Part shown: piece after piece, positions 4,541 through 55,126 of the stretch
Numbering within the stretch: position 1 is the first letter of the stretch
Layout: each line of letters opens with the position of its first letter
Source: Candidatus Aphodovivens excrementavium
GTDB lineage: Bacteria > Actinomycetota > Coriobacteriia > Coriobacteriales > Eggerthellaceae
DNA: 64,000 nt
Assembly: GCA_018715935.1 (NCBI GenBank)
Contig: DVKR01000040.1
Location: forward strand, 1-64,000
Direction: 5' to 3'
Program-made: the position numbers and the translations under genes
Notes under the pieces: generated by a model
Seen by the model: only the letters and a program-made list of their open reading frames with translations
Database searches by the model: none
Told to the model about the DNA's origin: nothing

Positions 4541-4601
4541 GTATTGCCCTATGGGAAATCCGCATAGCGAAACGAACGCAGAGAAAGGATGAAAAGGAAA
4601 G

Positions 4602-4657
4602 GGTGAAAAAGGGGACGTACGCTTTTGCAGGTGAAAAAGGGGCATGCACTTTTGCAC
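4602..4657. repeat. Two tandem 28-bp GTGAAAAAG repeats
   Basis: Two adjacent 28-bp copies (4602-4629 and 4630-4657) begin GGTGAAAAAGGGG and end CTTTTGCA. They are members of the dispersed palindromic family at 34-152 and 2399-2427. They sit ten bases beyond the stop of the surface-protein gene and could form its terminator hairpin. Confidence 0.7.
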
Positions 4658-4666
4658 ATGGACGCG

Positions 4667-7156: not shown

Positions 7157-7372
7157 ACGATTCCCAACTAGTTTGCGTGCCCACAGATGCAGCCAGCATA
7201 CACTTCCGCGTGCTCACACGTCAACGCGAACGAACCCCAACGGCAAACAGAGACCGTACGGACTCGAAAAATGAGGTTTTCCCCTTTATTCTTCGGACAC
7301 CGATCGAAGGACGCGTGCCGGCCAGAGGGCGGGCACCAATCGGAGGGCGGATGTCGACCAGAGGACTGCACC

Positions 7373-7581
7373 TTTTGCGGGATTTGTCCCGCATTCCTCC
7401 GGTGCGTTTTTCCGTACGCAAGGATCGCGGGTTTTATCCCGCATTCTTTTGGCAGGCGCTCGCCAAGCCGCAAGTTTTGCGGGACTTGTCCCGCGTTGTT
7501 GCGTCCCTCAGAAAGTTTTGCGGAGTTTGTCCCGCATCAGCCCCATTTTCGAGCTCGACAAGGGACAAACCCCTCAAAAGT
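7373..7581. repeat. Hairpin-forming TTTTGCGGGATTTGTCCCGC repeats
   Basis: Direct copies lie at 7373-7392, about 7423-7446, 7475-7494 and 7516-7535, and an inverted, more degraded copy at about 7560-7581. Each contains the inverted repeat GCGGGA-N4/5-TCCCGC, so transcripts of either strand would form a series of short hairpins. The array lies between the divergent surface-protein gene (start 7156) and the DUF3644/IS3 remnants. Positions 7157-7372 show no gene; 7310-7365 holds weaker GAGGGCGG-type repeats. Confidence 0.7.
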
Positions 7582-7765: not shown

Positions 7766-8381
7766 GGCCGGCACGACGCGCGGCTGCGCCAAGCGCCCCA
7801 AGGGCGAGGCCAAGCAGGCAGCGCCGCAGGCCAACTCGGCGCCCGACCTCGTGCGGCGAGACTTCAGCGCGGACGGCCCGAACAGGGCCTGGTTCGCCGG
7901 CATCGCCTACGTGCGCACGCACCAGGGGTGGCTCTACCTGGCGGTCGTGATGGACATCTGGTCCAGGAAGATCGTCGGCTGGTCGATGTCGGCCCGCATG
8001 ACGGCCGAGCTCGCCGACGACGCGCTGAGGATGGCGATCGCGAGGCGCAGGCCGCCCGGAGGCTGCATCCACCATAGCGACCACGGGAGCCAGTACGTCT
8101 CGCCCCTGATCGGCAAGACGATGCGCGAGGCCGGCATCAGGCCGTCGATGGGCTCGATCGCGAGCCCGTGGGACAACGCGGCGATGGAGTCGCTCATGGG
8201 GCTCGTCAAGGCGGAGTGCGTGCACGCCCGCACGTTCGAGACGCGGGATCAGGCGGCATTGGAGATATTCGACTACATCGAGTGCTTCTACAACAGGGTG
8301 CGGATCCACTCCGCGCTCGGCAACCTCAGCCCCGAGGAGTTCGAGGCGAGGCATGCGCAGGAGGCCGCTTCGGCGGCGTAG
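7710..8381 (+). CDS. IS3-family transposase remnant (OrfB, rve domain)
   Basis: The 223-aa frame carries the integrase core of an IS3-family OrfB from about residue 45: LVRRDFSADGPNRAWFAGIAY, then HHSDHGSQY (second Asp), SPWDNAAMESLMG (Glu) and YNRVRIHSALG. The first catalytic aspartate, normally in WxADITYV, is Gly here (codon GGC) and the next Thr is Ala, so the enzyme is probably dead. The N-terminal HTH region of OrfB and any OrfA are absent; the first 20 residues derive from a DUF3644-like gene. GTG 7710 is merely the first start codon in the open frame. A possible right IS end begins near TGTCAACGAAATCGGGG at 8386; no left end was found. Confidence 0.75.
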   Translation: MCNAWELMLKAYIIREIGWAGTTRGCAKRPKGEAKQAAPQANSAPDLVRRDFSADGPNRAWFAGIAYVRTHQGWLYLAVVMDIWSRKIVGWSMSARMTAELADDALRMAIARRRPPGGCIHHSDHGSQYVSPLIGKTMREAGIRPSMGSIASPWDNAAMESLMGLVKAECVHARTFETRDQAALEIFDYIECFYNRVRIHSALGNLSPEEFEARHAQEAASAA

Positions 8382-8422
8382 AGGGTGTCAACGAAATCGG
8401 GGTAAATTCATCCATATTGACG

Positions 8423-8475
8423 GAATGGCGCACATAGGAACCCCGCCCGGAGGGGAAAGGCGCACGTGGGAACTG
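8423..8475 (+). promoter_or_regulatory. Paired 20-bp element, copy A
   Basis: Two half-sites, AATGGCGCACATAGGAACCC at 8424 and AAAGGCGCACGTGGGAACTG at 8456 (32 bp apart), lie about 160-210 bp upstream of the 451-aa surface-protein gene. The same pair, in the same orientation relative to the gene, occurs upstream of the lipoprotein gene (11191-11241). A third, weaker TGGCGCACAGGCGGAC lies at 8511. It is a possible shared activator or repressor site, or a mobile repeat. Confidence 0.5.
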
Positions 8476-8521
8476 CACCGGCGCGGGACGTTCCCGTATC
8501 CTCGTTGCCGTGGCGCACAGG

Positions 8522-8599
8522 CGGACCGGGGGCGCCCCGCCCCCGGTCCGATCCCGTCGAGCCGAACGGTGCGAGGGGGAGCCAGACGCTCCCCCTCGC
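8522..8599. terminator. Two GC-rich hairpins before surface-protein gene
   Basis: CGGACCGGGGGCG pairs with the downstream CCCCCGGTCCG (8522-8550), and GCGAGGGGGAGC pairs with GCTCCCCCTCGC (8571-8599, five-base loop). The second is followed by TTAAA, not a strong T-run. They lie 35-110 bases upstream of the start at 8634 and may terminate incoming transcription or shape the leader of the surface-protein mRNA. Confidence 0.45.
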
Positions 8600-8633
8600 T
8601 TAAACGTCTAGCCCAAGGGCAAAGGAGGACATC

Positions 8634-9989
8634 ATGGCCAAGCACGCAAGGAGATCCTTCGCACGGTACACGATCGGGACGTCGAGGAAGGTGAAGCGCG
8701 CCGCGCACGCCGGGGGCGAGGCCGTCCTGCCTCCCGTCATGGAGTCGCGCGCCCGCAAGATCGCGGCGTCCGCCGCGGCCCTCGCCATGGCCGGCGCCCT
8801 CGCCCTGCCCGTGCCCGCATGGGCGGCGGATTGGGTCTCCATCGACGGGAACGATTACACCCAGGCCGCCAGCGGCGCGGGCTCGGGCGGGGGCTCCTGG
8901 TCGTGGAACGGCAAGGAAGACCTTCTGCTCGACGACTACTCCGGCACGGGCATAGGAGCCGGCGGCGACCTCGTCATCACCCTGGAAGGCGAGAACAAGG
9001 TCTATGGCGAAACGAGCTACGATCCGGCGACGGGGATGACCGAAACCGTCTCCGGCGGGGTCTGGGTCGAGGGCGGAGACCTCACCATCACCGGAGACGG
9101 CAGCCTCGACGTGTCGAGAGAAAACGAAGCCGCCGTCGTTACCTGGGGCGGCGACATCTCCATCGAGGGAACGACCGTCAGCGCCACGACCACTATAGAC
9201 GATGTCTATCTTGACTTGAGCAGCAAAGGCGCGATCACCGCCGAGGATGGCAGCATAGACATCATCGGCTCAACGGTCGATGCGACTTGGAACGATAAAG
9301 GAGATCATACCGGCACCATCCTTGCGATTTACTCGACTTCCCTCGGCGGCTCCCAAAATGCCGGCACTATCGACATCATCGATTCCGATGTCACCGCAAC
9401 CGTATCGGCACCCGATCGCAAGGGAGAAAACCTGGATTGGGCGCAGGGGATCGGAACGTTCAGCAACACCAAAGGCACCGCACCTCACGTCAACATCGAC
9501 AAATCGACCGTTGACGTGAGCACCCCGGGCGGTGCAGCACTGCGTGCTTGGAGCAGAAGCGGTGAAGATTCGGGTGCGATCAACATCTACGATTCGACGC
9601 TGCCCGAGGGGTCCTCGATTCGGGATGTTAATTATGATCCTGGATTTGGCGTTCCCTTCATCGGCCAGGTCCTCGCCACGGGATCGGGGACCATCACCGA
9701 GGTCGACGATCCGGCGATCCTGTCCAGCGCGCATATCGAGCGCATTGCCGATCCGGTAGACCCCGTGGACCCCGTGGATCCTGTGGATCCCGCCGAACCC
9801 GCTGAGCCTGCCGAACCCGCCGTTCTCCCGCTCGCGCCCGAGAAGGCGTACGCCGCGACCGCGGACGACGCCGCGCTGCCCGCAACGGGCGACGCGGCGA
9901 CGGGCATCGTCGCGACGGTGGCGGCCGCCATCACGGCCGCTGGCGCCACGCTCTTCGGCTGGAGGAAGATGAGGGACGCCGGGAAGTAG
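8634..9989 (+). CDS. LPATGD-anchored surface protein
   Basis: A 451-aa exported protein. The N-region is long and basic, with a hydrophobic core at about 42-60 ending PVPAWA, a signal peptidase site. Residues about 65-360 are rich in short Gly/Asp/Ile/Thr repeats (GGDLVITLEGENKVYG, VEGGDLTITGDGSLDV), a pattern of parallel beta-helix or Cthe_2159-like carbohydrate-binding domains. A (VDP)n/(AEP)n spacer at about 380-400 spans the wall, then LPATGD near 422, a hydrophobic helix and a WRKMRDAGK tail: a good sortase sorting signal. GGAGG precedes ATG 8634 by about seven bases. It follows two hairpins and a paired repeat element, and is followed by a strong hairpin at 10104. Confidence 0.85.
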   Translation: MAKHARRSFARYTIGTSRKVKRAAHAGGEAVLPPVMESRARKIAASAAALAMAGALALPVPAWAADWVSIDGNDYTQAASGAGSGGGSWSWNGKEDLLLDDYSGTGIGAGGDLVITLEGENKVYGETSYDPATGMTETVSGGVWVEGGDLTITGDGSLDVSRENEAAVVTWGGDISIEGTTVSATTTIDDVYLDLSSKGAITAEDGSIDIIGSTVDATWNDKGDHTGTILAIYSTSLGGSQNAGTIDIIDSDVTATVSAPDRKGENLDWAQGIGTFSNTKGTAPHVNIDKSTVDVSTPGGAALRAWSRSGEDSGAINIYDSTLPEGSSIRDVNYDPGFGVPFIGQVLATGSGTITEVDDPAILSSAHIERIADPVDPVDPVDPVDPAEPAEPAEPAVLPLAPEKAYAATADDAALPATGDAATGIVATVAAAITAAGATLFGWRKMRDAGK

Positions 9990-10103
9990 CGCAGACACCG
10001 CGCGTGCGCGTGGGTTCCCTCCTTTTGTCGGATCCCACGTGAAACGCTTGCCAAGTCCTGGGCGAGGACCGCAGAAGAACGCGAGCGCCTTTGGCCCAAC
10101 AAG

Positions 10104-10143
10104 CGAACCGCCCCTCCCCCTTGTAAGGGGGAGGGGCGGTTCG
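10104..10143. terminator. Strong 18-bp stem terminator
   Basis: CGAACCGCCCCTCCCCC pairs with GGGGGAGGGGCGGTTCG around a short TTGTA-type loop. It lies between the convergent surface-protein (ends 9989) and lipoprotein (ends 10180) genes. No T-run is present on either side, so efficiency is uncertain, but position and strength suggest a shared terminator. Confidence 0.7.
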
Positions 10144-10179
10144 ATGCTCGATGCGTAATACCCGATACGCGGAGACCAG

Positions 10180-11115
10180 CTAGGCGATTCCCCGATCTAT
10201 TGCTTCCTGCTCCTCGTTCTCATAGCATTCAACCAACCAGCCGCTCTCCGTAAGGTCGGAGATCATCCCGTTGATGCACTGGCAGAGATCCTCGTTGCCT
10301 TTCATGAGAACCAGCCCTAAGCCGAGGTAGGTTGGATCGACCATCTCCCAGCCGGACTGGGCGACCGTCCCGTTGACTATCTCCTGAACGATCTGATCCG
10401 CGAACGCCCGGTCGAACGAGGAGAACACGGCCGCATCGACCTGCCCGGCGGCCAGCGCTGCAAGAACATCCTCGTTCGTCGCCAGCTCAACAATCTCCGC
10501 CTCGGGATACACGACGACGGCGTTCTCCGCCTGCGCCGAGCCCTTGACGGCGCCGATACGCACGTGGACGAGATCGTCCTCGCTTTGCACCGATGCCCCA
10601 GACTCCGGATTCGTGCTCAAAAAGATCTCGTCGCCCACCACGTTCATCACGTCGATGCTGTCGGTCATCTCATAGCTAGCGAGCCGCTCCTCGGTTATCT
10701 CGAAGTTCGCAGCGGTGATGTCCACGTCCCCGGCTGCCGCCGCGCCCAACATCTCCTCGACGCTCCCGTACTCCACGAACTCGATCTCGACGCCCAGCCC
10801 TTCGGCGATTTTCCGGCAGAGCTCCGGCACGTATCCGTCCCGGGTGCCCGCCAGCTCTCCGTACGTCTCCGGATCATCCGGCACCACGTAGGTCATCTTG
10901 TTGCTGGCCCCCGCTCCGACTACCAGCACCCCGCGCTCCTGGATCGCAGCCGCGGAATGGTACTCAGGAGACGTCGGATCCGGAGCGGGCTCGGGAGATT
11001 CGGGAGCGCTGTTCTGGTTTTCGGCCGTTTCGTCGGATGAGGTCTCTCCCCCGCAGGCCGTCAGGCATAGGAGCATCGACAGGGCTACCATGATCGACAC
11101 TATTTTCTTGAGCAT
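10180..11115 (-). CDS. ABC-transporter solute-binding lipoprotein
   Basis: A 311-aa family-3 solute-binding protein (SBP_bac_3), probably for a polar amino acid or related compound. The start at 11115 is chosen over upstream in-frame codons because GGAGGAAGATC precedes it and because MLKKIVSIMVALSMLLCLTAC is a typical lipoprotein signal with the lipobox LTAC. A Glu/Pro/Ser linker (about 22-50) tethers the domain. Core motifs include GVLVVGAG, DGYVPELCRKIAEGLGVEI, GDVDITAANFEITEERLASY and LVLMKGNEDLCQCIN. No permease or ATPase gene is adjacent, so it is an orphan in this window and may serve a distant transporter or a sensor. A paired repeat element lies about 75-125 bp upstream. Confidence 0.85.
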   Translation of the reverse strand: MLKKIVSIMVALSMLLCLTACGGETSSDETAENQNSAPESPEPAPDPTSPEYHSAAAIQERGVLVVGAGASNKMTYVVPDDPETYGELAGTRDGYVPELCRKIAEGLGVEIEFVEYGSVEEMLGAAAAGDVDITAANFEITEERLASYEMTDSIDVMNVVGDEIFLSTNPESGASVQSEDDLVHVRIGAVKGSAQAENAVVVYPEAEIVELATNEDVLAALAAGQVDAAVFSSFDRAFADQIVQEIVNGTVAQSGWEMVDPTYLGLGLVLMKGNEDLCQCINGMISDLTESGWLVECYENEEQEAIDRGIA

Positions 11116-11190
11116 CTGATCTTCCTCCATTTCCATCATTGACGCATTGGCATGATGGATGATGGTGAATGCAGAGCATGCCGTTTTGCA

Positions 11191-11241
11191 GTTCGCATGT
11201 GCGCCATTCGCCCAAAGGGAGGGTTCGCATGTGCGCCATTC
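11191..11241 (-). promoter_or_regulatory. Paired 20-bp element, copy B
   Basis: Read on the minus strand, GAATGGCGCACATGCGAACC occurs twice, at 11222-11241 and 11191-11209 (31 bp apart), ahead of the lipoprotein gene. The proximal half continues GAACTGCA exactly as in copy A at 8456-8476. The rest of 11242-11393 shows no gene. Confidence 0.5.
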
Positions 11242-11393
11242 TGGAGAGCTGGGGTTTCGGTGGATTCCCGCGTCACGCGTCCTCCGCGCGATGCGATGGG
11301 GAGCGCCCGCCATGGAGGAGGCGCGCGGGAGAGGCACGCTGTTCTCGATGACGCCGGCGCCTCCAGCTAGAGGAAGCGCCGGCGTCGTACCGC

Positions 11394-14300
11394 TTATCGC
11401 CTCCCTTTGACCCGGCAGACGGCAAGAGCGGAAGCTGCGAGCATGCCGATCAAAGCGGCGGCGGCGAAAGGAACGGTTCCGCTGTCGGATGTGGCAGACA
11501 GGCCGTCACTGCCGCCGGTCTGCTCTTCAGGCGTCTGAGGAGCGGGGTCGGGCTCGGGGTCGGGGTCGGGAGTGGGAGTGGGCTCGGGCTCGGGCTCCGG
11601 CTCCGGGGACTCCTCCCACTGGGCGTAGAGCGTCACCGACCCCCCGGCCTCGGCCAGGTCCTCCTCGAGGGCGGCGCCGGGCTGGTAGGACGCGCCGCTG
11701 CCGTCGGGCGCGGTGTTCCAGCCGGCGAACACGTAGCCCCCGCGCTCGAAGCCGCAGGGATCGAGGGATTCGGCCAGCCCGATCTCGACGCGCTGCGGAT
11801 CCATCTCGCCCTCGCCGCCGTTGGCGTCGAAGACCACGGTGTAGTAGTCGCGCTCCCACTGGGCGTAGAGCGTGACCCGCCCGCCGTCCTCCTGCGTGAG
11901 GTTCTCGGCGACCGTCGCCCCGTCCGCGAACTGCTCCCCGCTGCCGTCGGCCTCCGTGTTCCACCCGAGGAAGTGGAAGCCCTCCAGGCCGAACGGGCAC
12001 GGCATGAGCGCCTGCTCCTGGTCGTGGAAGAACTTCTGGTCGAGCACCTCGTCGGGATCCACCGTCCCCGCCCCGTTCGGGTCGAAATGCACGAAATAGG
12101 GCCAGGGGGTCCACTGGGCGTAGAGGGCCACTTCATCGCCCTGCACTGTCGTGAGGTCCTGCACTTGCTCGCCGTCGGCGTAGAGGGTGCCCGTCCACCC
12201 GGGGGTCGTCGTCCATCCCGCGAAGTCGTAGCCCTCGCGCGAGAACCCGTTGGCGAACAGGCCCTGGGGCTCGCCGTAGACCATGTCTTGGGACTCCATG
12301 CCGCCGATGGCGTCGTCCGCGTTGGCGTCGAAGACGACCGTGTAGACGTTGGCGGCGGGGTGGGCCTGCAGGACCGCCGGGCCGTTCAGCGTGATGGTCT
12401 GATCAGCAACCGAAGGATCCCAGCTGGGCACGACACCGCCGGCCGTCCAGCCCTCGAAGGAGTAGCCGGCCTCCACGGAGGCGCCGATCCCGATCTTATC
12501 ACCGGCGAGTCGCTTGGTAATGCGGTCGACGTGCTCCCCAGTTGCGGGATCGACAATCCAGGCGCTCGCGTGGTCATCGGCCTCCACCTCCACGGTGAAG
12601 TACTCGAGCGAGAGCATGCCGAAGCCGCCCACTATCTCAATCTCGGCGTCCCTGGTGTCCCAACCGTCGATGGACACGGTGTATGAGCCGTCGGGCACGG
12701 AAAGCCCGCCCGTCGTCGTCGCGTAGACGCCATCGCATCCCGTCCGGTTGAAGGGGGCATAGGAGGTCTCGCCGTTCGTCAGCGTGATGCTCAGAGAATC
12801 CAAATCCACACCCCTACCGTTGTCGGTGATGGTGACGTAGGCCACCCCCTCCTCGGCGATGACCGCGTTCAGGCTCACCTCTCCGCTCGCAAGCGTCCCG
12901 TCGTCCTTCAGCCCGCAGAGGTTGACGACCTCGGAGCCGTAGGCGTAGAAGGACCCGAGGCCGAGCCCCTCCCACCCGACGATCGTCTCGTTGTCGGGGA
13001 TCGCATCGTTCCAGACGAGCGCGACCGGCTTGTCGAAGGAGGCCGATATCGGCGCCGTCTGAGAACCCATGGTCAGCTTGATGCTGTACGTCAGCGGCGT
13101 CCACTGGGCGTAGAGCGTCACGGTGGCGCCGTCTTCCTCGGACAAGCCCGAGACTTCTACGGCGTCTTCGTAGGGAGCGCCCGACCCGTCGGCCTTGGTG
13201 TTCCACCTGGCGAACGAGTAGCCGGGCAGGGAGTACCCGACATGGGGCAGCTCCGCCGCGCCGGCGAGCGGCACCGTGATCGCGTCCATGCTCCCGGAGA
13301 CCCGCGTGCTTGCCGAGGACGGCACGTTGGCGTCGAAGACCACCTCGTAGGAGGGCTCATGCCACCAGGCGTGGAGGGTCGTCTCACCCTGGCGCACCCA
13401 CCGCCCGTCCCCGTCGGTGTAGCCCTCCACGCCGTTCACGAGGCTGCCGTCGGCGTTGGCGACCAGCTTGGCGTCCTGGCTATCCGGGTCGGCCGCGGTG
13501 CCGTAGCCGATGAGCGTCCACCCGTCCGGGCCGGTCGGCGCCGCCACGTTGAAGAGCGTCGCGGCGTAGGAGCGCGCGTAGGCCGAGCCGTCGGCGCCGC
13601 CCTCGGTGGCCTTGAGCACGACGTTGGGGGATTTGCTCAAGGTTCCGCCCTTGCCGGCGTCCACCTTGCCGGTGTAGATGGCGCTGCCCGAGTCCACGGC
13701 GCTCGTCACCGAGTTGCCGGAGTGAATCCACGGGTAGACCTGGTTGCCGATCGTGCGGACGTCGTTGGCGCCGTAGGGCACGTCGGCATGGGAGGAGCCC
13801 GAGAGGTCGATGCCGGCCACGCGGGTGCCGTCGGCGGCGCCGGCGAGCGCCACGGTGGTCTTGCTGACCGCATTGCCCCACTTGTCCACGGGGTTGGTAA
13901 CCTTGTTGGCGTTTATCGATCCTCCGGTGATGATGGTGGTGCATCCGGAGGAGCTGTTGTAGTCTCCGATATCCCGGTGATTATCGATGCCTTTGGCGGT
14001 AATGGTTCCGCCGGATATCGTGATGGTGGTTTCATGCTTGTCGTACTGACTGACGTAAGTGCTCTTGATGGTCCCGATACCGATCTTTCCAGTTGCGTTC
14101 ACGGTGCCGCCGGAAATGACTATGTTCGTCCAGACCTTCTCTACTTTTCCATCCTTGTAGCTGCAGTAAAAGTAGCCGCCTATGCCCGCGCTTTCGCTAG
14201 ATTTGACGATATTGTTGCCTTTGCCGCCGATGGCGGTGATGTCTCCGCCCGAAATATTGATATCCGTAGCGCCGGAGCTTGATCCGCCGGATCCGATGCC

Positions 14301-15371
14301 GCTGCCATCGCCACTTCCTTCAGCATAGACCGTCCCTCCGGTGATATATATGCCCCGCGCGTTGCCATCGCCGCCTGAACCAATTCCAGCGCCATCGGAA
14401 ACAGTGGCTTTGGCGGTTACGTTGCCTCCGTTTATGCGGATGTTCTCACCGCTGGCAATCCAATCCGCCGGGCCTTCATAGGACCTACCACCGCCGATTC
14501 CCGCGCCGCCTTCTTCTCCTGTGGCGGTAACGGTACCACCGTTTATCGTGATGTCCTTGCCGTTGCAGCCCCAACCGCCGCCGATTCCCGCGCCGCCGCC
14601 ATCCCCCTTGGCTTCCACGATTCCGCCGTTGATCGTGATGTTCTGAGCGTGCCCGCGGCAGCCTCCGCCGATACCGGCGGCACCATTGCCTCCCTGGGCT
14701 ACGACCTTGCCGCTGTTGAACTCGATGTTCCCGGTGGTTCCGGAGAAAGTGAACATGAGAACATAGACCGATCCGATGCCCGCGCTGCCGCTCGAGTGGC
14801 TCGCATGCGCGGTTATGGTGCCCGGGTTGTCAGGATCCTCGGTCTCGAACACGAGCTTTGTCTGCGTACCGTCCTTGCGTATAGCCGGGCAGAGTAGGTA
14901 GCTGCCAAAGTAGGAGCTGGAACCGGACTCTGAGACAAGCTTCACGGTGCTGTTCTTATTCTCTGCGATCTCGATGGCGGCCGTGCGTACGCCTATGTTC
15001 GCCTTGATGCTGGGATCTATGCTGAGACCATCCGCCAGCTTGACCGTAACCGTCTGTCCCTCCGGGGCGGAAATCACCACCCTGACATTGGTGCTCTGCC
15101 CGACAAGACGGTACTCTCCCGCCTTGTCGATGTGAACGGTGGTGTTCCACCCGGCTTTTGAGACGTCCACGGTGTCGCCGGGGTTCGGACGCCAGTTGTG
15201 CCAAGCACCCCCAACTCCCGATCCGTCGAGATCCCCCTCAAGCGCATCGGCCGCCGTCCCGCCGCCTTCATCGGCAAACGACATCGGCGCGGCTAAGCAC
15301 AGCGCGACCACCAGAGCGGCGAGAAAAGCCATCGCCAGAGACGCCACAATCCTAATCGACTTCGAACGCAT
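11394..15371 (-). CDS. Large surface protein with InlB-type repeats
   Basis: A protein of about 1325 aa; the frame opens further upstream (15440), but MRSKSIRIVASLAMAF at 15371 begins a clean signal peptide (cleavage near SFADEGG) with GGAG eight bases before it. Residues about 100-430 contain many GGAGIGGG-type repeats alternating with ITINGGTVTATG-type strands, a beta-helix-like carbohydrate-binding pattern. Four InlB/Listeria-Bacteroides repeats (VVFDAN, GYxFAGWNT, VTLYAQW) lie at about 675-760 and 1010-1270. A Pro/Glu/Asp spacer precedes LSATSDSG, a hydrophobic helix and a VKGRR tail: a degenerate sorting signal. A TATAAT box flanked by inverted repeats precedes it, and a membrane LuxR regulator gene lies immediately upstream in the same direction. 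Role probably adhesion or glycan binding. Confidence 0.8.
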   Translation of the reverse strand: MRSKSIRIVASLAMAFLAALVVALCLAAPMSFADEGGGTAADALEGDLDGSGVGGAWHNWRPNPGDTVDVSKAGWNTTVHIDKAGEYRLVGQSTNVRVVISAPEGQTVTVKLADGLSIDPSIKANIGVRTAAIEIAENKNSTVKLVSESGSSSYFGSYLLCPAIRKDGTQTKLVFETEDPDNPGTITAHASHSSGSAGIGSVYVLMFTFSGTTGNIEFNSGKVVAQGGNGAAGIGGGCRGHAQNITINGGIVEAKGDGGGAGIGGGWGCNGKDITINGGTVTATGEEGGAGIGGGRSYEGPADWIASGENIRINGGNVTAKATVSDGAGIGSGGDGNARGIYITGGTVYAEGSGDGSGIGSGGSSSGATDINISGGDITAIGGKGNNIVKSSESAGIGGYFYCSYKDGKVEKVWTNIVISGGTVNATGKIGIGTIKSTYVSQYDKHETTITISGGTITAKGIDNHRDIGDYNSSSGCTTIITGGSINANKVTNPVDKWGNAVSKTTVALAGAADGTRVAGIDLSGSSHADVPYGANDVRTIGNQVYPWIHSGNSVTSAVDSGSAIYTGKVDAGKGGTLSKSPNVVLKATEGGADGSAYARSYAATLFNVAAPTGPDGWTLIGYGTAADPDSQDAKLVANADGSLVNGVEGYTDGDGRWVRQGETTLHAWWHEPSYEVVFDANVPSSASTRVSGSMDAITVPLAGAAELPHVGYSLPGYSFARWNTKADGSGAPYEDAVEVSGLSEEDGATVTLYAQWTPLTYSIKLTMGSQTAPISASFDKPVALVWNDAIPDNETIVGWEGLGLGSFYAYGSEVVNLCGLKDDGTLASGEVSLNAVIAEEGVAYVTITDNGRGVDLDSLSITLTNGETSYAPFNRTGCDGVYATTTGGLSVPDGSYTVSIDGWDTRDAEIEIVGGFGMLSLEYFTVEVEADDHASAWIVDPATGEHVDRITKRLAGDKIGIGASVEAGYSFEGWTAGGVVPSWDPSVADQTITLNGPAVLQAHPAANVYTVVFDANADDAIGGMESQDMVYGEPQGLFANGFSREGYDFAGWTTTPGWTGTLYADGEQVQDLTTVQGDEVALYAQWTPWPYFVHFDPNGAGTVDPDEVLDQKFFHDQEQALMPCPFGLEGFHFLGWNTEADGSGEQFADGATVAENLTQEDGGRVTLYAQWERDYYTVVFDANGGEGEMDPQRVEIGLAESLDPCGFERGGYVFAGWNTAPDGSGASYQPGAALEEDLAEAGGSVTLYAQWEESPEPEPEPEPTPTPDPDPEPDPAPQTPEEQTGGSDGLSATSDSGTVPFAAAALIGMLAASALAVCRVKGRR

Positions 15372-15429
15372 CGCGATTCTCCAATCCCCCGGGCCGCTGA
15401 AACCCCTGAACCGGGACGTCGATGAGCCA

Positions 15430-15472
15430 GTTGAAACCATAGGGCAATTATACGAAGGCGCTTGGTTTCAAC
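15430..15472 (-). promoter_or_regulatory. Promoter with flanking inverted operator arms
   Basis: A consensus TATAAT (15447-15452, minus strand) sits between perfect 10-bp inverted arms GTTGAAACCA (15430-15439) and TGGTTTCAAC (15463-15472), centres 33 bp apart. The upstream arm covers the -35 area, where no good hexamer is seen, suggesting activator dependence. The LuxR-type protein encoded just upstream is an obvious candidate binder. Confidence 0.5.
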
Positions 15473-15617: not shown

Positions 15618-17027
15618 TCAGTCCACCGTGAAGCTCATATAGTTGCGGAGCAGGCCGACCCTCGTCTTTGTTTCGGCCTTCTCGTAGATGGAGGAGACGT
15701 GCCGCTGGACCATCCGCCGCGAGATGAACAGGCTGTCGGCGATCTCCTGCAAGTCGTCGTCGGTGGTCAGAAGCCTCTCCAGCACTTCCGTTTCGCGGGG
15801 GGTCAGGGAGCAGCGCTCCGCGTACAGCTGCAGCCGCTCTTGCGACAAGATCTCCTGCTGCGCGGGGATCTCCTCGATCTGCTCCGAAGCGGTGACCGCG
15901 CGGGCGATATACGGCAGCAGCACCAGCAGGATGCCGATCGATATCAGGCAGCTTCCCACCGCCAGCGCCGTGCTGCCCACGGCGTCGTAAATGCTCAGGG
16001 CAGGGAGGATGGTTGCGGCCACCGTAAGGCTGCGCACGATGCGCCCCATGCCCGCCCATAGCTCGGGGCATTTGCTCTTCGGCGCAAAGTCCAAGAACAT
16101 CACGGTGAGAAAGATCACGTAAAAGCCGCTGTACAGGTACATCAGCGCGGTGCCCGCAAAATAGCCGACCTCCTCGGAGAGGAAGAACATGCAGACGGAG
16201 GAAACCAGTATGGCGCACACCGTGGCGAGCGGGAGGTATTTCCTCTCCTTCACATCCGCGATGAACCCCGCCAAAACGAGCCCCAAGGCATAGAAGAGCC
16301 GAACCCCGCTGTAGATATTGTAGGATCGCTCGGCGTTGAAGGCGGTCAGCACGCTGTCGATCATCCCCGCGACAAGGCTCATCAGCACAACGGCAGCGAC
16401 CAGGGCGATCGCCGTTTTGCGGTACTTCCGGTCATCCGAAAAGCTTTGGACCGGCTTTTCCGGAATCCAATTCCTCGGCACCCGGATGACGAATAACATC
16501 ACAAGCGCCACGCTCAAGAAGATGCCGACCATGAAAACGACCGATTGTGAAATCAGATTCTGCACGACGAACTGCAAGACGATCGGCGCCGCCATGCCGG
16601 CGCCGATCACCCTTCCCGTATACCGGCTTCCGGCAAAGCACATCGCCGTATCGTAATACACGCAGCCGCCGATATGGCCGGTCAGCAGAAGCGCCGCGGT
16701 GGCGCTCGCCAGGAAAACGGCCGGCTGGTCCGCGATCAGCAAGACGGCGGCGGCCGCGAGGCACAGGGCGCCTACGACGATCAACGCCGCTTTTCTCGAT
16801 CGTTCCGTTTTGCAGGCTTTGCGCAGCAGGGAAAAAGAAAGGAAGCCCGCGCCTGTGCAGACAAGCCCGAACGTGTACACGGAGTTCACGGAGGAGCTTC
16901 CGAGAACGACGGCGCAGCGCTCGTTGACATACGCCTCGATCAGCATGAAGGTGAAGAAACACAGCGCGAAACAGATTCCGCACAGAAGCCGTGGGGAAGG
17001 GTTCGCCCTCACCCGTTTTTCCGCCAT
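15618..17027 (-). CDS. LuxR-family regulator with membrane domain
   Basis: A 468-aa protein with ten to twelve hydrophobic segments (about 15-370) resembling an MFS-like membrane domain, followed by a C-terminal LuxR/NarL helix-turn-helix (about 405-465: LTPRETEVLERLL, LQEIADSLFISRRMVQRHVS). This architecture is common in Coriobacteriia, where such proteins are thought to couple membrane sensing to transcription. The start at 17027 (MAEKRVRANP) has AGGGGG about nine bases upstream; the longer open frame to 17255 lacks membrane or coding character. It is followed after 246 bp by the 1325-aa surface-protein gene in the same direction, its likely target. A TATAAT at 17224-17229 would give a leader of about 190 nt. 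Confidence 0.85.
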   Translation of the reverse strand: MAEKRVRANPSPRLLCGICFALCFFTFMLIEAYVNERCAVVLGSSSVNSVYTFGLVCTGAGFLSFSLLRKACKTERSRKAALIVVGALCLAAAAVLLIADQPAVFLASATAALLLTGHIGGCVYYDTAMCFAGSRYTGRVIGAGMAAPIVLQFVVQNLISQSVVFMVGIFLSVALVMLFVIRVPRNWIPEKPVQSFSDDRKYRKTAIALVAAVVLMSLVAGMIDSVLTAFNAERSYNIYSGVRLFYALGLVLAGFIADVKERKYLPLATVCAILVSSVCMFFLSEEVGYFAGTALMYLYSGFYVIFLTVMFLDFAPKSKCPELWAGMGRIVRSLTVAATILPALSIYDAVGSTALAVGSCLISIGILLVLLPYIARAVTASEQIEEIPAQQEILSQERLQLYAERCSLTPRETEVLERLLTTDDDLQEIADSLFISRRMVQRHVSSIYEKAETKTRVGLLRNYMSFTVD

Positions 17028-17673: not shown

Positions 17674-17750
<77 letters not shown>

Positions 17751-40424: not shown

Positions 40425-43400
40425 TTATCGACGATTGCCGCCTCGCTTTGCGCGGCGCATGAGCACCAACGCCGTCAGGCAGGCTGCAAGAGCCACCAGC
40501 AGCACGGCTCCCGCGCCCATGAGCACGCCTGATGCCGCATCGCCGGTATCGGCAAGCGCCTTCAAATTGGAGCCGCCGCCCTTTCCGCTGCTGCCGGTAG
40601 GCTGATTGGCGCCTTGGCCTGCATTGCCGCTACCTGAGCCGTTGCCGCCCTGTCCGGCGTCGCCATTGCCGGATCCGTCGCCGCTGCCCGTGCCGTCGCC
40701 GGGGTTGCCGGGATCGGCACCCGGATCGTTCGGATTGTCCGGATCGGTGCCAGGATTATCGGGGTCTGCCGTCTTAACGTTAATCTGCACATCAACATAA
40801 AGCGGCTCGTAGTTTGCCGTATCCGTAGGCGCGAACACTGCGCGATAGACCCCCGCTTCGTTCACGACGCCCGCAGTGTCTACCCAGCTCCACGTGCCGG
40901 TTACCGGCGTTCCGTCTGCCATGACCACCGTCGCGCCAACAAGCGCCACGTCAGCCAGCTTCGTGCCCGCCGCAACTTCGGCAGGGTCGGCAGCAAGACC
41001 CGTCTGCGACAGCATCGCCTTTGAGATCACGATGCCGGCGGGATACTCCTTCTCGAACGGCGCGTAGTCGCTGGATCCCTCATAGACAAACTTCACATCG
41101 TAGGAGCCTACGCTTACGGGTGCGCCGCTCGACCACGGATTGGAGCCCGAACGATAGAGCACCTGCACCTTTGCCTGCTCGGATGCAGGGAAGCTCTGGC
41201 CGTATGCCGGGACGGCGGGAACTGCCGCGCCGGTGTAGGCCACCGCAATACCGGCAAACGAGATGTCGGCATCAGAGCTGATATCCGCAAGCCACTTCGC
41301 GTAGAGCGTAACAGCCGAATCAAACGCGGTGGCAGCAATGCCCGCCGCAGGGTCGGCGTCCTCGGCGAACACGACTGGCTGGGCGAGGTCCTCATCGAGG
41401 TACCATCCTGCCAATTCGTAGCCGTCGAGCGCCAGGGTGGGAACGTCGCCCTCGCTGAGCGTTCCGCCCGTGGGCACTTCTACCGTCGTCGTATGGGAGC
41501 CGCCCTCAAAGACGCCTTCGCCTGCGTTAAGCGTAAGCTCCACCGTGTCGTCGGCAGCAAGCTCCCACTGCGCGTAGTACGTGCTTGCGCCCGCCGTCTG
41601 GTACGTGGTGCCTGCCGTCACCTGCTCGCCGCCCTGAGCCGATGTGAACCAGCCCTTGAACGTGTAGCCGTCGCGTGTTGGTACGGGCAGCGCGGGAAGC
41701 GCCGCGTCGTAGGTGGCGGTCACCGTTGTCGTTCCCATTCCATCGTCGAATACGCCGCCCTGGGCGTTAAGCGTCACCGCATACGTCTTCGGAGTCCACG
41801 CCGCCGTGACGGTTATGTCTGCAGACACCGGCGTGTCCGTGGTAAACGGGGTTCCTTCTGCCGTCATCCACCCGGCAAAACCGTAGCCGACGCGGCTTGC
41901 CGTTGGCAGGCTCGCCAGCGTGCCGCCGGCAGTTACCGTCTCAGTGCCAGGATGGCCACCGTCAAGCGCGCCCCCGTTGGCATCGAACGTCACCGTGTAC
42001 TGCTGCGTCGGCGGCGTGCTGCCTCCCTCCCAGGTCATCACGTAGGGGCTGAACCCAGAGGAAGGAACATGGAAGCTTACGTATCCATCGGCGACGGCGC
42101 TCGTGTCAAGCGTCACCGACTCAACCTCGCTTTTCGCAATGAGGTCACTCACCTCTTGGTCGCTTGCGCTGTAGTCGCGATGAAGTCCGGCGAAGTGATA
42201 CACCTTAATGCTTTCCGCATCCGCACCTTCGGGGATCTTCCAGAACACCGTGGTGCCCTCAGATGAGCTTACCCATGCGTTCGACTGCTTCTGATCAACA
42301 AGGTCGAGGTATTGGAAGTCGTAGTTCGAGCCGACCGTACCTGCACCCAGCTCGCTGTTGGCGTGATCGATAAGCTCCTGCTCTCGCTGGCCCGGCAGCA
42401 GTTCATCGGAGAACAGCGTCACGCCCGACGCGTCTGCCAGCGGCACATCGACGTTGCCGTTGAAGTAGATTGTCGTGTCTTCGGGCAGCGCTGCCGCCAC
42501 GCCGCCCTCCGTCTCAAGCGCCCCCTCGATGGCAGCGGGGCTGCTGGCATCCACCAGCGGGACGTTCAGCTCGCCGCTCTCTGCGGCCTCGGCATCGGAC
42601 ACGCTGCGGATAACCAGCTGGGAGGGCTCAAGCGCGAACGTGTAGCGATGCTCGTTAACCGTTACGTCGACCGACCCCTCGGCGTCGCTCTCATCACCTG
42701 CCGTGCGCGTTTGCGCGCCCTCCACCGTCAAGTCGACACGTGCGGTGTATCTACCCGGCTGGGTGTCGTCTTCGATGGCCTCGCCATTTTCGTTGTAGTA
42801 GCGCACCTGCGCCGTCGTTCCCTCGTCAAGCAGCTCGTTAAGTTCGGCGATGGTGTAGGCGTTGCCTTGACCGTCGATCACGTACTGATCGGCGAAGTGG
42901 TCACCGGTGCTGCTCGTGCCTCCCACGTATTTCTCGACAGCTGCGGGACGCAGCGTCAGGCACGTGATCTCATAGGTGAATGCCGTCTGCTGGCCTTCTG
43001 CAAGCTTCCACGATTTCGCCTCACTGTCGTAAGTCAGCGTGAACGTCTCCCTGCCGTCTTCGTCGCTCTTCGCGAAGTAATGCGTGCCATAGGCGGGATC
43101 GCCCATTTCGGCATATGCATCGAGGTAGTTCTGAGCATCCATCGCCACCTCGACGGTCCACGTGCCGTCGGTGCCCTTTACGGGCTGTTCCACCGTGAAG
43201 CTGTCTGCGATGAGCGGCTCGCCGTCTGCGCCGCCAAACGTCACATCGGGATGCGCATTGCTTCCTTCGCTTCCGTTGATTTCGTTCACGCCTGCAAGCT
43301 CAACGGAAACGGCGTCGCCAAGCTGCTCTGCTACGTATTCCGACGTGGGCGCGGCGGGGTCAACGTCGCCAGCGTCTACCGACCACCGCGCGCTTACCAC

Positions 43401-46400
43401 TATCGACTCGTCAACAGCCGTAAGGGCTTCAAAATCGGCTTCGTCAGCATCGACCCAGCCAAGGAACTGGTGCCCATCCCACTCCACCGTGGGTAGTCCG
43501 CCCCAGCTGTTAAGGCATTGATTTGCAGGCAGGATCACCTGGCTGTTGCCCTTTGTGAAGACAGCTCCCTCTGCCTCATCGGCGCCATCGATGCCGTCGT
43601 TATCGTCGAACGTCACCTTGACAATGGTCGCCGTCGAAAGATCGCTGTCCTCGTGATTCTCGTCGCCGGCACCCCAGGCGTAGTAGGTGCCCTCCGCACT
43701 CACCTCAAAACGTTTGTTCTCCGCCTCCTGCGGATCGCTCCTATCGTCGCTCTCGCTCCAATAATAGATATCGGAGTTGCCGTTCTGGAGAATCACCTCT
43801 ATAGTGCCGGGGGCTTCGCCCTCGCTGTAGCGGATGTCGGGCGCTGTCGCCTTTGCCTTGGCAATGACCACACCGCTCTCGAATACCTGCTCGAAGGCGT
43901 TGTAGTCGCCGTCGGCCGCACGTGTCACACGTACGTCGTAGCTGCCGGCGTTCACCGGGACGTCAATTGACCAAGCAGCATCATCTGAAGAGTCTGCCGA
44001 CCGATACTCCACCGTGAATCCTTCGATGTCGTCACTCGGTAGCGTTGTGAAAGCGAAGGGTCTGCCGGTGCCGTCATACACATAAGCCGTATTGCCGGCA
44101 TCGGGATTCACCGAAACGTCCTGCAACGGCGACTCGCAAACGCCCTGGAACGTCACGGGCGTGGCAGCGGGATCCTCAAGCGCCCAACCTGCCGACACGG
44201 GAACCTCGGCAGAGGGATCGCCGTCCCTCCACACGAGCGTCACCGTCTTAGAAGCATCGCCCGACACCGTATGAGTACCCGCTTCGAGGCCAAGAGCCTT
44301 GTCGAATGCTGCCACGTACGGCGCTGCTTGGATCGTTACGTCAACCATCCAGACCTTCTCAGCCTTCGCCAAGCCGAAGAACTGCGCAGCGCTCTCGATC
44401 AAGCCCTCGGCGGGAACGTCCTCGGAATACACCTCGTCGATAGCGTACGCATCGTTCTGCCCCTCGCTGTTGGCGATCAGCGTATCGAAAGTCTGCGCGA
44501 CATGCTCAGAGGCCATCGCCTCGTTGGCATCGGACACCTGCACGTCGAGCAGCGCGTTCACGTCGTCAACCGTCACCTCGGGACGCATCTTGCACACGAC
44601 GTCGCGCTCCACAGTCACATCGGTGGGTTCGCCATCGACGTACAGCGTAGCAGTCACCTTCACGGCGCCCGCCGCAAGTTTGGTGAGCTCGCCCGTTTCT
44701 TCATCGATCGTCGCCACGGTGTTGTCATCCACCGAGTACTTGAACGAGACGCGGCTGTCGTAAACCGGGCTGGAGAAGCCCTTGCTGGCTTCATACGTTG
44801 CGGAAGCGGTGCCCTCGTCCAGCACCTCGAGGCCTTCGATCGTCGGGTTGACGGCAATCACCTCGACCTCCGCCGAGAGGCTGGGATTGGAATCTGACGT
44901 AGCCGTAATGTTCGCTCCGCCTGTCTGATGCACCGACACGATGCCCTGCCCCGCGTTCGCGGAAACCGTCGCGGTCTGCTCGTTGTCGGACGCCCAGCTG
45001 ATACCGTTGTCGAAGGCATTCGCCGGCGTAGTGTAACCGTTCAGGCGCAGCGTACGGGCTTCGCTCTGACGCATATCCACGACGCGCGTCGCGTCACCGT
45101 CGATGACCACACTCTCGACGGGGTTGTTCTGGATGGTGCGCGTCGGCCCGTAGACGATCACCTGGCCGCCGCCCGTGATACCCGACCCCGTCGGCGCGCT
45201 CTTGCCGTTGCCGTAGATCCAGTACTTGCCGAACACCGTGCTGGTGCCGCCGGGCAGCTCGCCCTGCATGTAGTCGCCGTCTTGTGAGTAGTGCCTGCTC
45301 GACATCTGCGCAGCAGGAAGCGATGCGATGTCCTCCACCGACGCAGCGCCCACCGCACCGTCCACCCGGTAGATGCCGTCAGAGGCGCCCCAGCCGTTCG
45401 ACGCGACATACCCAATGGAGACATCCTTGTAGTTCTGAGTAGAAACGCTGCCCACATACGGCGTCACACCGCCGATGTTCACGTTGCCGTTGTTGTCGGC
45501 GAGGATATGCACGTTGGAGCCGCTGCCCGTCTGGATGCTCACGCCGTTGTACGGCACGATGGTTCCGCCCGTGATATACGCATTCGCGCCGTCAAACTGG
45601 ATGGGATACGTGGTGTTGTCGGCCACGTTCTGATGCTCGAACGTGCCGCCGTTCACGTAAAGCGTACCCTGCGTCCACAGGCTGTTGATCGTGCCGCCGT
45701 TGACCGTCACCTCACTCGAGGCGTTCGCGACGTCCACGGCGAGATGGTGGTTGTTCTTCAGGCTGTAGGTGCCGTCGTTGATGGTGAGCTTCGTGCCCGT
45801 CACGCCGGTCGCGAACACCGCCGCCTCGGAACCCCAGTACATTCCCGAACTGCCGAGAATAGCCGTGCCGTTGTTGCCGGCGAACTTAACGGCAACGCCT
45901 TCGTTGTTACCACCCGTGCCGTACTCAGTGCGCAGCGAAACGCCGCCCGTGGTGATGAGCGTTGAGTTCGCCCCGATTTCGACAGGGTTGAGCGCGTCAT
46001 ATAATGACCCCTGCGCACGCGTGTCGTTAACGTACACCGAGTCCTTCAGCACGAGCGTCGCGCCGTTCTGAACATGGAAGCGGCAGGACTTCAGCTCTCC
46101 TGAGCCGCCGACCACCAGGTCGCGGTTCACGTAGATCTCACGGTTGCCGTCGTCGAACAGACCACCCTCGTCGAACTCAAAGGAGCCCTGCGTAATGATC
46201 GTGCCCACCGACGAGTCGTTCACCGCGGCGGTGAAGTCATCGGCGTTCCCTACCGTCACCGTGCGCTTCTCCGCCGTGCCCTTCAGCACGTTGAGCATCT
46301 TCTCAGCAGCCTCCAGGCGATCGAGGTTGGATACCTGCGCCTGATCCTCGGCGGAAAGCGCGTCGTAGGCGTCGCGCGCCGCCGTGATGGCCGCCTCGTC

Positions 46401-49400
46401 GTCCACCGTGACGTCCTCCGCGTCGGGCAGCGAGGCGATCATGTCCTCAACCTGCTTCCAGGCGGGTACGTCCTCCTCGGCCTTCGAGATCGCGAAGCTG
46501 TCGATGAGCGTCGAGCTGCCGCCGTCAACGCGATACGCCTGGTAGTACAGGTGGTCACCGTCGATAGTGATGCCCGAATACACCGGCACCGACAGGTCAA
46601 GCGCAACCTTGCTGGGGATGTCGGCGGAAGGCGTCTGCACGTAGTTCTTCACGCCTGCCGTACCAGCGATGACGAACGCCGTGCCGTTGGGGTTGAGAGC
46701 CGTCTCGTAGTTGGCGCCCTCGTAAGTCTGCGTCTCCAACGTCACGTCCTGCTCGGCACCGCGAGAAAGGAACGGCGTACGGTTATATACGTGGTCATGC
46801 CCCGAAAGCACGAGGTCAACGTCGCATGCCGCAGCCAAGGCGTCTATCTGCGAACGGATTGTCGCCACATCGCTGTCGGCCTGATGCGGGCCGTTGGAAT
46901 ACGGCGACTTATGCATGAGCACAATTTTCCACTGCGTGTCTGCACCCGCCAGCACGTCATACGCCCAGTCGTACTGCGCCTGCGACAACGACTCGTCGGT
47001 GGCAAGGTCGTTCGTGTTGAGCACCACGAACGTAGCATTTTTGTACACGTAAGAGTAGTACACGCCCGTTGAGAGGTCCTGTCCTTCCGGCACGTTTGCC
47101 AAGTTGAAATGCGACACGATGGGGTTCTCATCGGTAATGCCCTCTACATCGCTTTTCGCTTCGTGATTACCCGCAGCGGGCGTCATCGACATGCCCTGCG
47201 CCACTCCGTCTTCGTCGTCGAGCGCCCAAGTCCAGTAATCCTCGTTGGCCCCATCGTCCACGAAGTCGCCCCCGTGCACCGTGAACGATGCCTCAGGGAA
47301 GGCTGCATCTGCCTGCGCCAATGTGTTCTTATACACGTCGTAGTCGGACTCAACCATGCCCTGTGAGTCGTTCACATTGACGAAGGTGAAGGCGTCGTCG
47401 GCATCCGCTGCGTCACCCGTAGCGAACTGATAGGCGCTGCTCCACCATCCGTTGTCCTTGTTGCCCACGCGATAGTAATATGTGGTGCCGTCGTCCAGCC
47501 CACTCACGGAAACGGAGTGCTTCTCCGCCTGCTGGGTGCCATAGGTAGTAACCAAGCCTAAGTTCAGCTGGGTCTTTGGTTTAGTCACCTGCTCAGAAGA
47601 CGCCTGCACCTCGGCTACGATGTTTTGGAACTGGTCGTCGGTCGCTACCTGCACGGCGCCGCTCGTCACATTCGTCCCCGTATACCAGCGGAAGTTGCGA
47701 TCGGTAACGGGGTTGGTGCCCAATGTCATAGTCACCTGAGTCGGTAAAAGCCCGTTGTCAACCGACGGCTCGGGCGCAGTTGTAGTTCCATCGAACTCGA
47801 CAGTAACTCCCTCGCCGTCGATCACGTCATCAGTAAAGTTGGAATCATAGAGCATCGAGCCAGCGATTTCGGAGATGAGCGAGCCCATGCCGGTGAGGAA
47901 GCTCGGGCTCATGTACTCGTTGATCAACCCTTCTATCATGCTGCGGATGGCAACAGAGTCGAATCCGAACAGTTCCAACGTGCTTTTCAGGTTGCCGTTG
48001 TCGGTCTGGCTGTCGATGGCCGTCTTCCATAAGCCAGAAAACGCGATGCCGGTGTCGATGGAGTTGTCAGCGAGCAACGTGTCGATTATGAGCATGACGT
48101 CATCAATGAGCGTGGCAATGAGCGTTTGAACCACATTCCCCGACTCGATGTAGGCAAGGGCGTCTTCCACCCACGCCGGCGGATTCTCGTGGCCGGCATA
48201 ATGGCCGGTCAGCACAACAAAAACCAAATCGTATATGGTATGCTGCTCGGAATCTAGCGAAGTGATGCCCATGTTCGACACTTGGGTCACAATCTCATCG
48301 ACCTTCCCGAGCAGCCATTCGGGGTCGTCGATATATTTCGTCTCGACCGTGTTCAGCACATCGTCCACCAGGCGCAAAATCTGCGCGTCGGTGATGGTCG
48401 TGTTTCCGATGATGCCGGCAGTGCCAGAAGGCGAAAGCTGGATGCCGCCGTTACGGTACTCGACATGCACGCGTCCGATTCCGGTGCCTAACTCTATCTC
48501 CATACCTCCCGCAAGTGCGTCGCGCACGGCTGAAAGAACCATTGTGTCTATGTCCACATCGGGCAGGTTTTCTGCCAGCCAGGGACGCAGACCCGCTTCG
48601 CCAATCTCCTGAAGCATGGGACGCAACATGCCATTCGCCATGTTGTTGAAGAGAGTTTCGGGATAGAGCTTCTGCTGCGTGTAGCTCTTAAGATCGTCGA
48701 TCTGAGTAACCGCCCCCGTATGGTCTTTGAAACTGATGGCCTTCACGCTCTCGCTGGACACGCTGAACGTCTCGTGCGTGCGTTGCGTGCCGTCGTCAAG
48801 CGCTGCGCCCTTCGTTAAGGTGACAGTACGCACCGGGCTCATCCACGAGGAGAGCGAGCCCGTCTCCAGGTCGGTAATGGTGTTGCCCGCGTTCGACGTG
48901 AACTGCGCCATGTCGTTGGCATGCATGTGGCCGGTGAAGATGTAGCGCATGCCTGCATCAGCGAATTGGGACGCCACGTCGCGCCAATTCTCGACGACGT
49001 ACTCGGAGAGGATGTTCTCCTCGCCGGTGAAGTGAGGAACGAGGCCGTGGTGCATCAGACCAATGACGGTGTCGCCCTCGGCCTCTGCGTTCTTCGTCTG
49101 CTCGACCACCCAGGGCATGAGATCCTCATCCACACGACCTGCGGTCACATGCTCGTTCGTGTCGTAGCCGGTGTGGGCGTCGGGGCTATACATTCCGGAG
49201 TCGATTGCCACAATGGTGTACTTGCCCAGATCGACGGAATACGAAAGGCCGCCCGCCTGCTCGCCGGATGCTGCGTTGGGGTTGGTGAAGTACTGCGCAT
49301 CCCAGTTTCCGTCATAGCCGAAGTTCCGATAGATCTCCTTGAACTCGTCGGGAGTCGTGGTTTCGGCGCTTTCCTTCTTGCCATTCGCGAAAGTGCACGA

Positions 49401-54385: not shown

Positions 54386-55126
54386 TCACTTTGACGGCGC
54401 TTTCACGAGGCCGCCTTCGTAGGCGCAGATAACCAACCCGGCACGATCATGCGCATCAAGCTTTTGCATGATGCGCGCCACATGCGTTTTCACCGTCGCG
54501 GGCGATATTACCAGATGCGCAGCAATTTCCTCGTTGCTCAGCCCACGCGCTACCAACAGCAAGATCTCGCGCTCGCGATCGGTAAGCGACGTGAGGGCGT
54601 TGTTAGCCACCGGACGCTGATAGGGACGCGATGCCACGAAGGTTTCCACCAACCGGCGCATGATGGAAGGCTGGATAAGAGCATCTCCCGCCGCAACCAC
54701 CCGCAACGCATCTACGATATCGTCAGGTTCGGCGTCTTTCAAAAGGAATCCGCTTGCGCCTGCCGCAAGCGCGTCGTAGACATATTCATCGAGGTCGAAT
54801 GTGGTAAGGATGAGCACGTGAGTGTTGGCGAGCTTGGGGTTTGCCTTGATGTCGCGTGTGGCCGCAATGCCGTTGAGGCGCGGCATTCGAATATCCATCA
54901 GCACTACATCAGGAGCAAGGCGCTGGGCGAGTTCTACCGCCTCAAGCCCATCGCGAGCCTCGCCCACTACGTCGATGCCGTCATAAGAGAGCAGAATGAG
55001 CCGAAATCCGCTGCGCACGAGGTCTTGATCGTCCGCAATGAGCACGCGAAGGGGTTTGGCGCGTCCTTCCACAGATGGATTGGAAAATACATCCGCCCTC
55101 GGAGACGCGTTCGTTTCATTCAGCAT
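54386..55126 (-). CDS. NarL-family response regulator
   Basis: A 246-aa two-domain regulator. Receiver domain about 27-145 with acidic pocket ADDQD (31-35), phosphoacceptor Asp78 in VVLMDIRMP, and the conserved Lys in GFLLKDAEP near 130; LuxR-type HTH about 180-240 (LTDREREILLLVARGLSNEE, VISPATVKTHVARIMQKL). ATG 55126 overlaps the last codons of the histidine kinase gene by 11 bases, so the pair is translationally coupled; AGAAGGGGG inside the kinase gene serves as ribosome site. Its targets are not in evidence. Confidence 0.93.
   Translation of the reverse strand: MLNETNASPRADVFSNPSVEGRAKPLRVLIADDQDLVRSGFRLILLSYDGIDVVGEARDGLEAVELAQRLAPDVVLMDIRMPRLNGIAATRDIKANPKLANTHVLILTTFDLDEYVYDALAAGASGFLLKDAEPDDIVDALRVVAAGDALIQPSIMRRLVETFVASRPYQRPVANNALTSLTDREREILLLVARGLSNEEIAAHLVISPATVKTHVARIMQKLDAHDRAGLVICAYEGGLVKAPSK

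Follow-up and report, generated by a model that had tools for sequence, protein, structure and literature searches.

What is the function of a repeated pair of short boxes in front of two exported-protein genes, and which protein reads it? In the window, i.e., the whole 64-kb stretch of DNA that was analysed, the pattern AATGGCGCAC[A/G]TNNGAAC was found in four copies that form two pairs, each with a start-to-start distance of 32 bp. One pair lies on the plus strand in front of the gene for a surface protein with an LPATGD signal (box 1, 8424-8441, AATGGCGCACATAGGAAC; box 2, 8456-8473, AAAGGCGCACGTGGGAAC), and the other lies on the minus strand in front of the gene for a solute-binding (SBP) lipoprotein (box 1, 11223-11240; box 2, 11191-11208; both AATGGCGCACATGCGAAC). 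Three of the four boxes are exact, and the one at 8456 has two mismatches. The original prediction had described the same element upstream of both genes, in the same orientation relative to each and with similarity continuing beyond the boxes. These points were borne out, as each pair points towards its gene and the match extends to GAACTGCA; of the predicted spacing of 31-32 bp, the value of 32 applies to both window pairs and that of 31 to neither. With up to three mismatches allowed, the window contains four matches versus a mean of 0.86 in shuffled sequences. A matrix built from the four boxes gave them scores of 32-36 bits, which is circular for the boxes themselves, and the next best position in the window scored 9.5, implying that the window has no intermediate copies. 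As a whole, the two pair regions form 55-nt inverted arms that are 78% alike and 2709 nt apart. Intergenic repeats of type AAAAAGCGCACGTCCCCTTTT are also present at 33-130 and 4600-4660; that they have GCGCACGT in common with box 2 at 8456 is probably a coincidence.

The gene behind pair 1 (8634-9989, plus strand) encodes an exported protein of 451 aa with an LPATGD sorting signal and no Pfam match. It faces the lipoprotein gene on the minus strand (10180-11115), whose product was assigned to SBP_bac_3 (4.7e-15). From 17027 downwards, the minus strand contains a regulator gene, a gene for a surface protein with beta-helix and Flg_new repeats (11394-15440), and the lipoprotein gene behind pair 2; the window scan found no box upstream of the beta-helix protein gene. 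To the left of pair 1 are an IS3-type transposase, 43 bp outside, and, further left, another surface protein; the left end of the IS3 element was looked for and not found. An Rfam scan of 8300-11400 returned nothing, and no SBP homolog could be detected at 1e-20 among 136 other genomes of the family. Integration at tRNA-Met (17674-17750) was rejected, as a repeat of the tRNA sequence is absent from the window. Two additional features of the window are a 28-nt repeat around GCGGGA-TTTGTCCCGC at 7368-7538, which is present four times at distances of 41-52 bp and lies upstream of the IS3-type transposase, and a 3156-aa surface protein with a calcineurin-like phosphoesterase, a purple acid phosphatase N-domain, and Big_2 and Flg_new repeats (40425-49895).

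Whether the element marks a surface regulon extending over the genome, as had been predicted, was examined in the genome of origin (2.08 Mb in 54 contigs). Seventeen matches with up to three mismatches were found, versus five for the reversed pattern. They comprise the four window boxes (0-2 mismatches) and 13 others, all of which have three mismatches and are unpaired. No copy beyond the four boxes appeared in this genome at up to two mismatches, which argues against a broad surface regulon. The motif scan thus yielded two promoters only, neither more than 9 kb away from a single regulator gene, and the two Clostridia genomes described below have one pair each; the genome-wide regulon had to be abandoned. 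The control site is a small local module. Scattering of hits, which the prediction had itself named as the outcome that would speak against a shared site, was not observed in this genome, and a search of 138 family genomes, with up to three mismatches allowed, detected the pair in this one alone.

The putative cognate regulator is encoded on the minus strand at 15618-17027, with its start placed at 17027 because homologs align from this position. It has 469 aa; an MFS-like membrane domain of 12 helices is followed by a GerE/LuxR domain at the C-terminus (residues about 395-469). The GerE domain (PF00196) scored 37.3 bits (cut-off 23.5), and the MFS_1 Pfam score of 29.3 was under the cut-off of 33.4. 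An AlphaFold2 model (11 homologs, mean pLDDT 78.8) contains about a dozen long helices followed by the GerE helices. The best Foldseek matches of this model were MFS transporters (OxlT; E 3e-7, TM 0.57/0.67), and the GerE part matches by sequence the structures of GerE, DesR, VraR, and ComA. With its C-terminal GerE domain and N-terminal 10-12 transmembrane helices, the protein has the architecture of the LuxR regulators with 10-12 transmembrane segments (Dong 2022). Neither the pair nor a relative of the regulator was found in viral contigs, plasmids gave none, and phages gave only two partial matches of 30-31%.

By scanning 84,980 species once for the exact pair, with a free spacing of 12-22 bp, two contigs were identified: L050 of genome G138, labelled Oscillospiraceae, and L051 of genome G139, labelled Clostridia. 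The chance expectation, estimated by hand from the pattern length and the collection size, is about 0.005. In both contigs, an ortholog of the window regulator (69% identical, or 68% by BLASTP, in L050 and 76% in L051; 75% between the two) immediately precedes the pair, and in L050 the next gene after the pair encodes an SBP lipoprotein with 43% identity to its window counterpart. Each genome has one pair, in addition to unpaired matches that carry 1-3 mismatches (12 in G138, 20 in G139). A search with the regulator protein, covering 394 genomes of the G138 order, 400 of the G138 family, and 295 of the G200 family, additionally retrieved G200 (73%), G195, G357, G433, G586, G922, G691, G749, and G927, and G357 was left out of the evaluation because it is cut by a contig end. 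In G200, G195, and G749, all found by the protein and not by the box, the pair is located within 140 bp behind the regulator. The reading frame of the G195 regulator is interrupted (L081:9301-10703), and the box pair and SBP-SLH target are kept. The genes behind the pair encode an SBP in G138, an SBP with SLH domains in G195, and a BspA-type LRR protein about 400 bp off in G200, and FHA/PP2C genes follow after a gap in G139 and G749. The predicted class of downstream genes, those for exported proteins, therefore applies to most loci and fails in G139 and G749, where the next intact genes are of the FHA and PP2C signalling type. Downstream of the module, G139 and G195 have genes of the FHA, PP2C, and protease-like types (L083:8403-11192), and G749 has those for FHA and PP2C. 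Among the genomes examined, a second pair before a second gene (LPATGD) occurs only in the genome of the window. As the gene content of the window points to Coriobacteriia, transfer between phyla is likely.

Further comparison indicated that the pair follows the similarity of the GerE domain. It is present in all six loci whose GerE identity to one query is at least 84%, and in none of the 26 rows at 62% or less to the same query (24 regulators after removal of two duplicates), these rows being the fetched loci, a part of the many matches listed. Of these six loci, one belongs to the window and two had been detected through the box, which leaves G200, G195, and G749 as the only independent tests. 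Among loci found without the box, the pair thus occurs in 3/3 versus 0/24, a result that by hand count would be expected once in 2925 if the loci were independent; as the three genomes are related, the true surprise is smaller. Single, unpaired matches with two mismatches were present in three neighbourhoods: L035 (which contains L024), L037, and L044. The G749 regulator, behind which the pair is present, shares 27-28% identity with the G138 and window regulators over the membrane part, and its GerE domain is 87% identical to that of G138 and 79% to that of the window. By contrast, the pair is absent from G586, G922, G022, and G433, where the identities to G138 are 44-49% for the membrane part and 58-61% for GerE. 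This contrast implies that the boxes go with the DNA-binding domain and not with the membrane domain, and, judged from these identities, G749 is a natural domain swap.

The promoters show a common geometry. Box 1 reads AATGGCGCACATNNGAACC in all seven aligned promoters and is invariant outside two N positions, and box 2 is looser; the spacing of the pair is 32 bp in four promoters and 33 bp in the other three. A TATAAT-like hexamer with 0-3 mismatches begins exactly 27 nt from the start of the box 2 GAAC in 7/7 promoters: TATCAT in G138, G139, and G749, TATAAT in G200, TATTAT in G195, and two putative -10 elements in the window, namely TATCCT for the LPATGD promoter (8497-8502, plus strand; two mismatches) and a weak CACCAT for the SBP promoter (11162-11167, minus strand; three mismatches). 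When offsets of 15-45 nt were scanned, the summed mismatches were 9 at 27 and at least 18 at all others. Such a site would have the class II layout, with an activator site abutting the -35 position at a fixed distance from the -10 element.

The four relatives without the pair were also inspected. Diverged boxes were found in G586 and G433 (GGGTTCGTAAATACGAACCC, then TTTGGCGGGA[A/G]TACGGCCTG) and in G922 (AAAGTCACAGATGTGACCCC, then ATTGGCGCGCTTGTGACCTG), in each case with a 33-bp spacing and a -10-like hexamer at 27; G022, examined by eye, fits this plan save for the -10. The combined 33/27 rule, which was framed after inspection of the same sequences, matches three of the four diverged relatives (G586, G433, and G922) and none of 5000 shuffles of each, and it matched 1/1826 control windows in a set that included the G433 locus itself. 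In the 47-52% relatives of the regulator, the diverged pair is immediately followed by a conserved protein of about 112 aa (L085:3011-3349, L088:3047-3385, L080:8813-9187, and the left end of L032).

The original proposal of a shared cis-regulatory site, with a LuxR-type regulator as its presumed reader, gains strong support from the recurrence of the element beside membrane LuxR orthologs and from its fixed geometry to a -10-like element. Very probably, the membrane-anchored LuxR-type activator encoded at 15618-17027 uses the paired boxes as its operator, with two-box binding and class II activation. The pairs, their spacing, the -10-like offset, the co-occurrence with the regulator, and the tracking of GerE are visible in the sequences themselves, and the binding, the direction of control, the ligand sensing, and the start sites are predicted as follows. 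The boxes, separated by three helical turns, would both be contacted from one side of the DNA by two subunits or dimers of the regulator. The promoter itself has a -10-like element and lacks a good -35; box 2, centred at about -44, would adjoin the -35 position, and box 1 would be centred about 32 bp further upstream, at about -76, both of them positions that GerE-domain activators occupy in class II promoters. The predicted transcription starts are about 7 nt downstream of each putative -10. The MFS-like domain may sense a ligand, upon which the regulator would activate the SBP gene and, in its own genome, also the second promoter, which drives the LPATGD surface protein. In this way, RNA polymerase would be recruited by the membrane-held activator to a promoter whose -35 is weak. 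The proposal is activation, and not repression, because of the promoter layout and because DadR, HcdR, and CadR are activators. Some observations speak against the operator: a 4-kb gene without a box separates the regulator from the window pairs, the LPATGD gene begins 132 nt downstream of the -10 predicted for it, and the -10 elements of the window are poor, with three mismatches in CACCAT and two in that of the LPATGD gene.

Several other explanations were weighed. The pair could be an operator at which the regulator represses, or binds only in a looped or membrane-held complex, in which case class II activation would be wrong. Sequence cannot separate activation from repression, and box 1 lies close behind the regulator's own end in the relatives; however, the poor -35 beside box 2 and the -10-like hexamer favour activation, as does the activating role of DadR, HcdR, and CadR (PMC9734109), and this version is considered unlikely. 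A mobile unit spanning 8423-11241, with the pairs as terminal inverted repeats (tandem transposase sites of a Tn7-like kind) and the two genes as cargo, would agree with the inward-facing 55-nt arms, 78% alike, and with the IS3-type transposase 43 bp outside. On the other hand, L050/G138 and L051/G139 have a single pair per genome, between the regulator and the next gene, and not one at each of two ends; a matching target duplication was not seen by eye at the two outer ends; and the fixed offset to the -10-like hexamer would be left unexplained. Such a unit appears very improbable.

A dispersed neutral repeat of the REP type is hardly credible for this site: although such repeats exist in the family, as in G080 with 275 copies of the box-like TGGTGCCAGNCATGAA, only four copies are present in the genome of the window, the exact pair was found elsewhere among the 84,980 species only beside the regulator, and both spacing and promoter position are conserved. 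It is just as difficult to believe that the boxes are read by a different regulator, for example the NarL-type response regulator encoded at 54386-55165, which also has a GerE domain: five other genomes have the pair linked to the membrane LuxR, whose GerE domain it tracks.

A few candidate sites were discarded. The boxes near a LuxR homolog in G080 were not accepted as support, being dispersed repeats (275 matches versus 2 for the control), and tandem repeats in L041, L042, L036, and L047 were rejected as box pairs because they are hairpin-like or unplaced. In L033 (G080:C1:982000-1001999), many of the TGGTGCCAGNCATGAA-type repeats are 32-66 bp apart, and the ORF at L033:6948-7718 is, by eye, presumably a REP-associated transposase.

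If the pairs are the operator of the membrane LuxR, this operator and the natural domain-swap control would provide a direct test of how a membrane-held regulator reaches a promoter, and a way to predict the targets of orphan membrane LuxRs. More tentatively, and with somewhat greater doubt than belief, this may be the first operator code to become readable for the large family of membrane LuxRs. Box pair and GerE domain would then form a transferable unit that is conserved in distant gut bacteria, is recombined with different MFS-like sensor domains, and brings DNA to a transporter-like membrane receptor to switch surface proteins. On this reading, the 33/27 geometry would be kept while the box letters vary with the GerE domain, so that operators of other family members could be predicted.

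Sites of known GerE-domain activators offer a basis for comparison. Class II sites of LuxR/FixJ/NarL-type activators lie next to the -35 position, with a centre near -42 to -45 and a weak -35. Box 2 resembles them in its place next to the -35, its centre of about -44, and the weak -35; unlike them, the present site has two 18-bp direct boxes at 32-33 bp and a membrane-bound regulator, and we know of no class II site with a similar box sequence. MalT is a soluble, ATP-binding GerE-domain activator with directly repeated sites. The boxes described here are likewise direct repeats for a GerE-domain activator, but the MalT boxes and spacings differ and MalT is soluble.

The regulator family is known; as far as searches show, evidence for its operator and for a domain swap is not found in the literature; no published operator for the family was encountered, including in the accessible parts of PMC9734109 and PMC11585353, and a search in print for the box letters returned matches in E. 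coli papers. In PMC9734109, DadR, HcdR, and CadR of Eggerthella lenta are described as 10-12-transmembrane LuxR regulators of Coriobacteriia that were shown to be activators; drug and polyphenol metabolism of gut Coriobacteriia is under the control of membrane LuxRs, by a mechanism that the authors call unclear. Compared with these proteins, the regulator studied here is similar in its many-helix N-terminal membrane domain, its C-terminal GerE domain, its gene near a presumed target, and membrane domains that have diversified more than the GerE domains. It differs in having an ortholog in Clostridia and a proposed operator, and in its presumed targets, which are an SBP lipoprotein and a sortase-anchored surface protein here and redox enzymes in the case of DadR, HcdR, and CadR.
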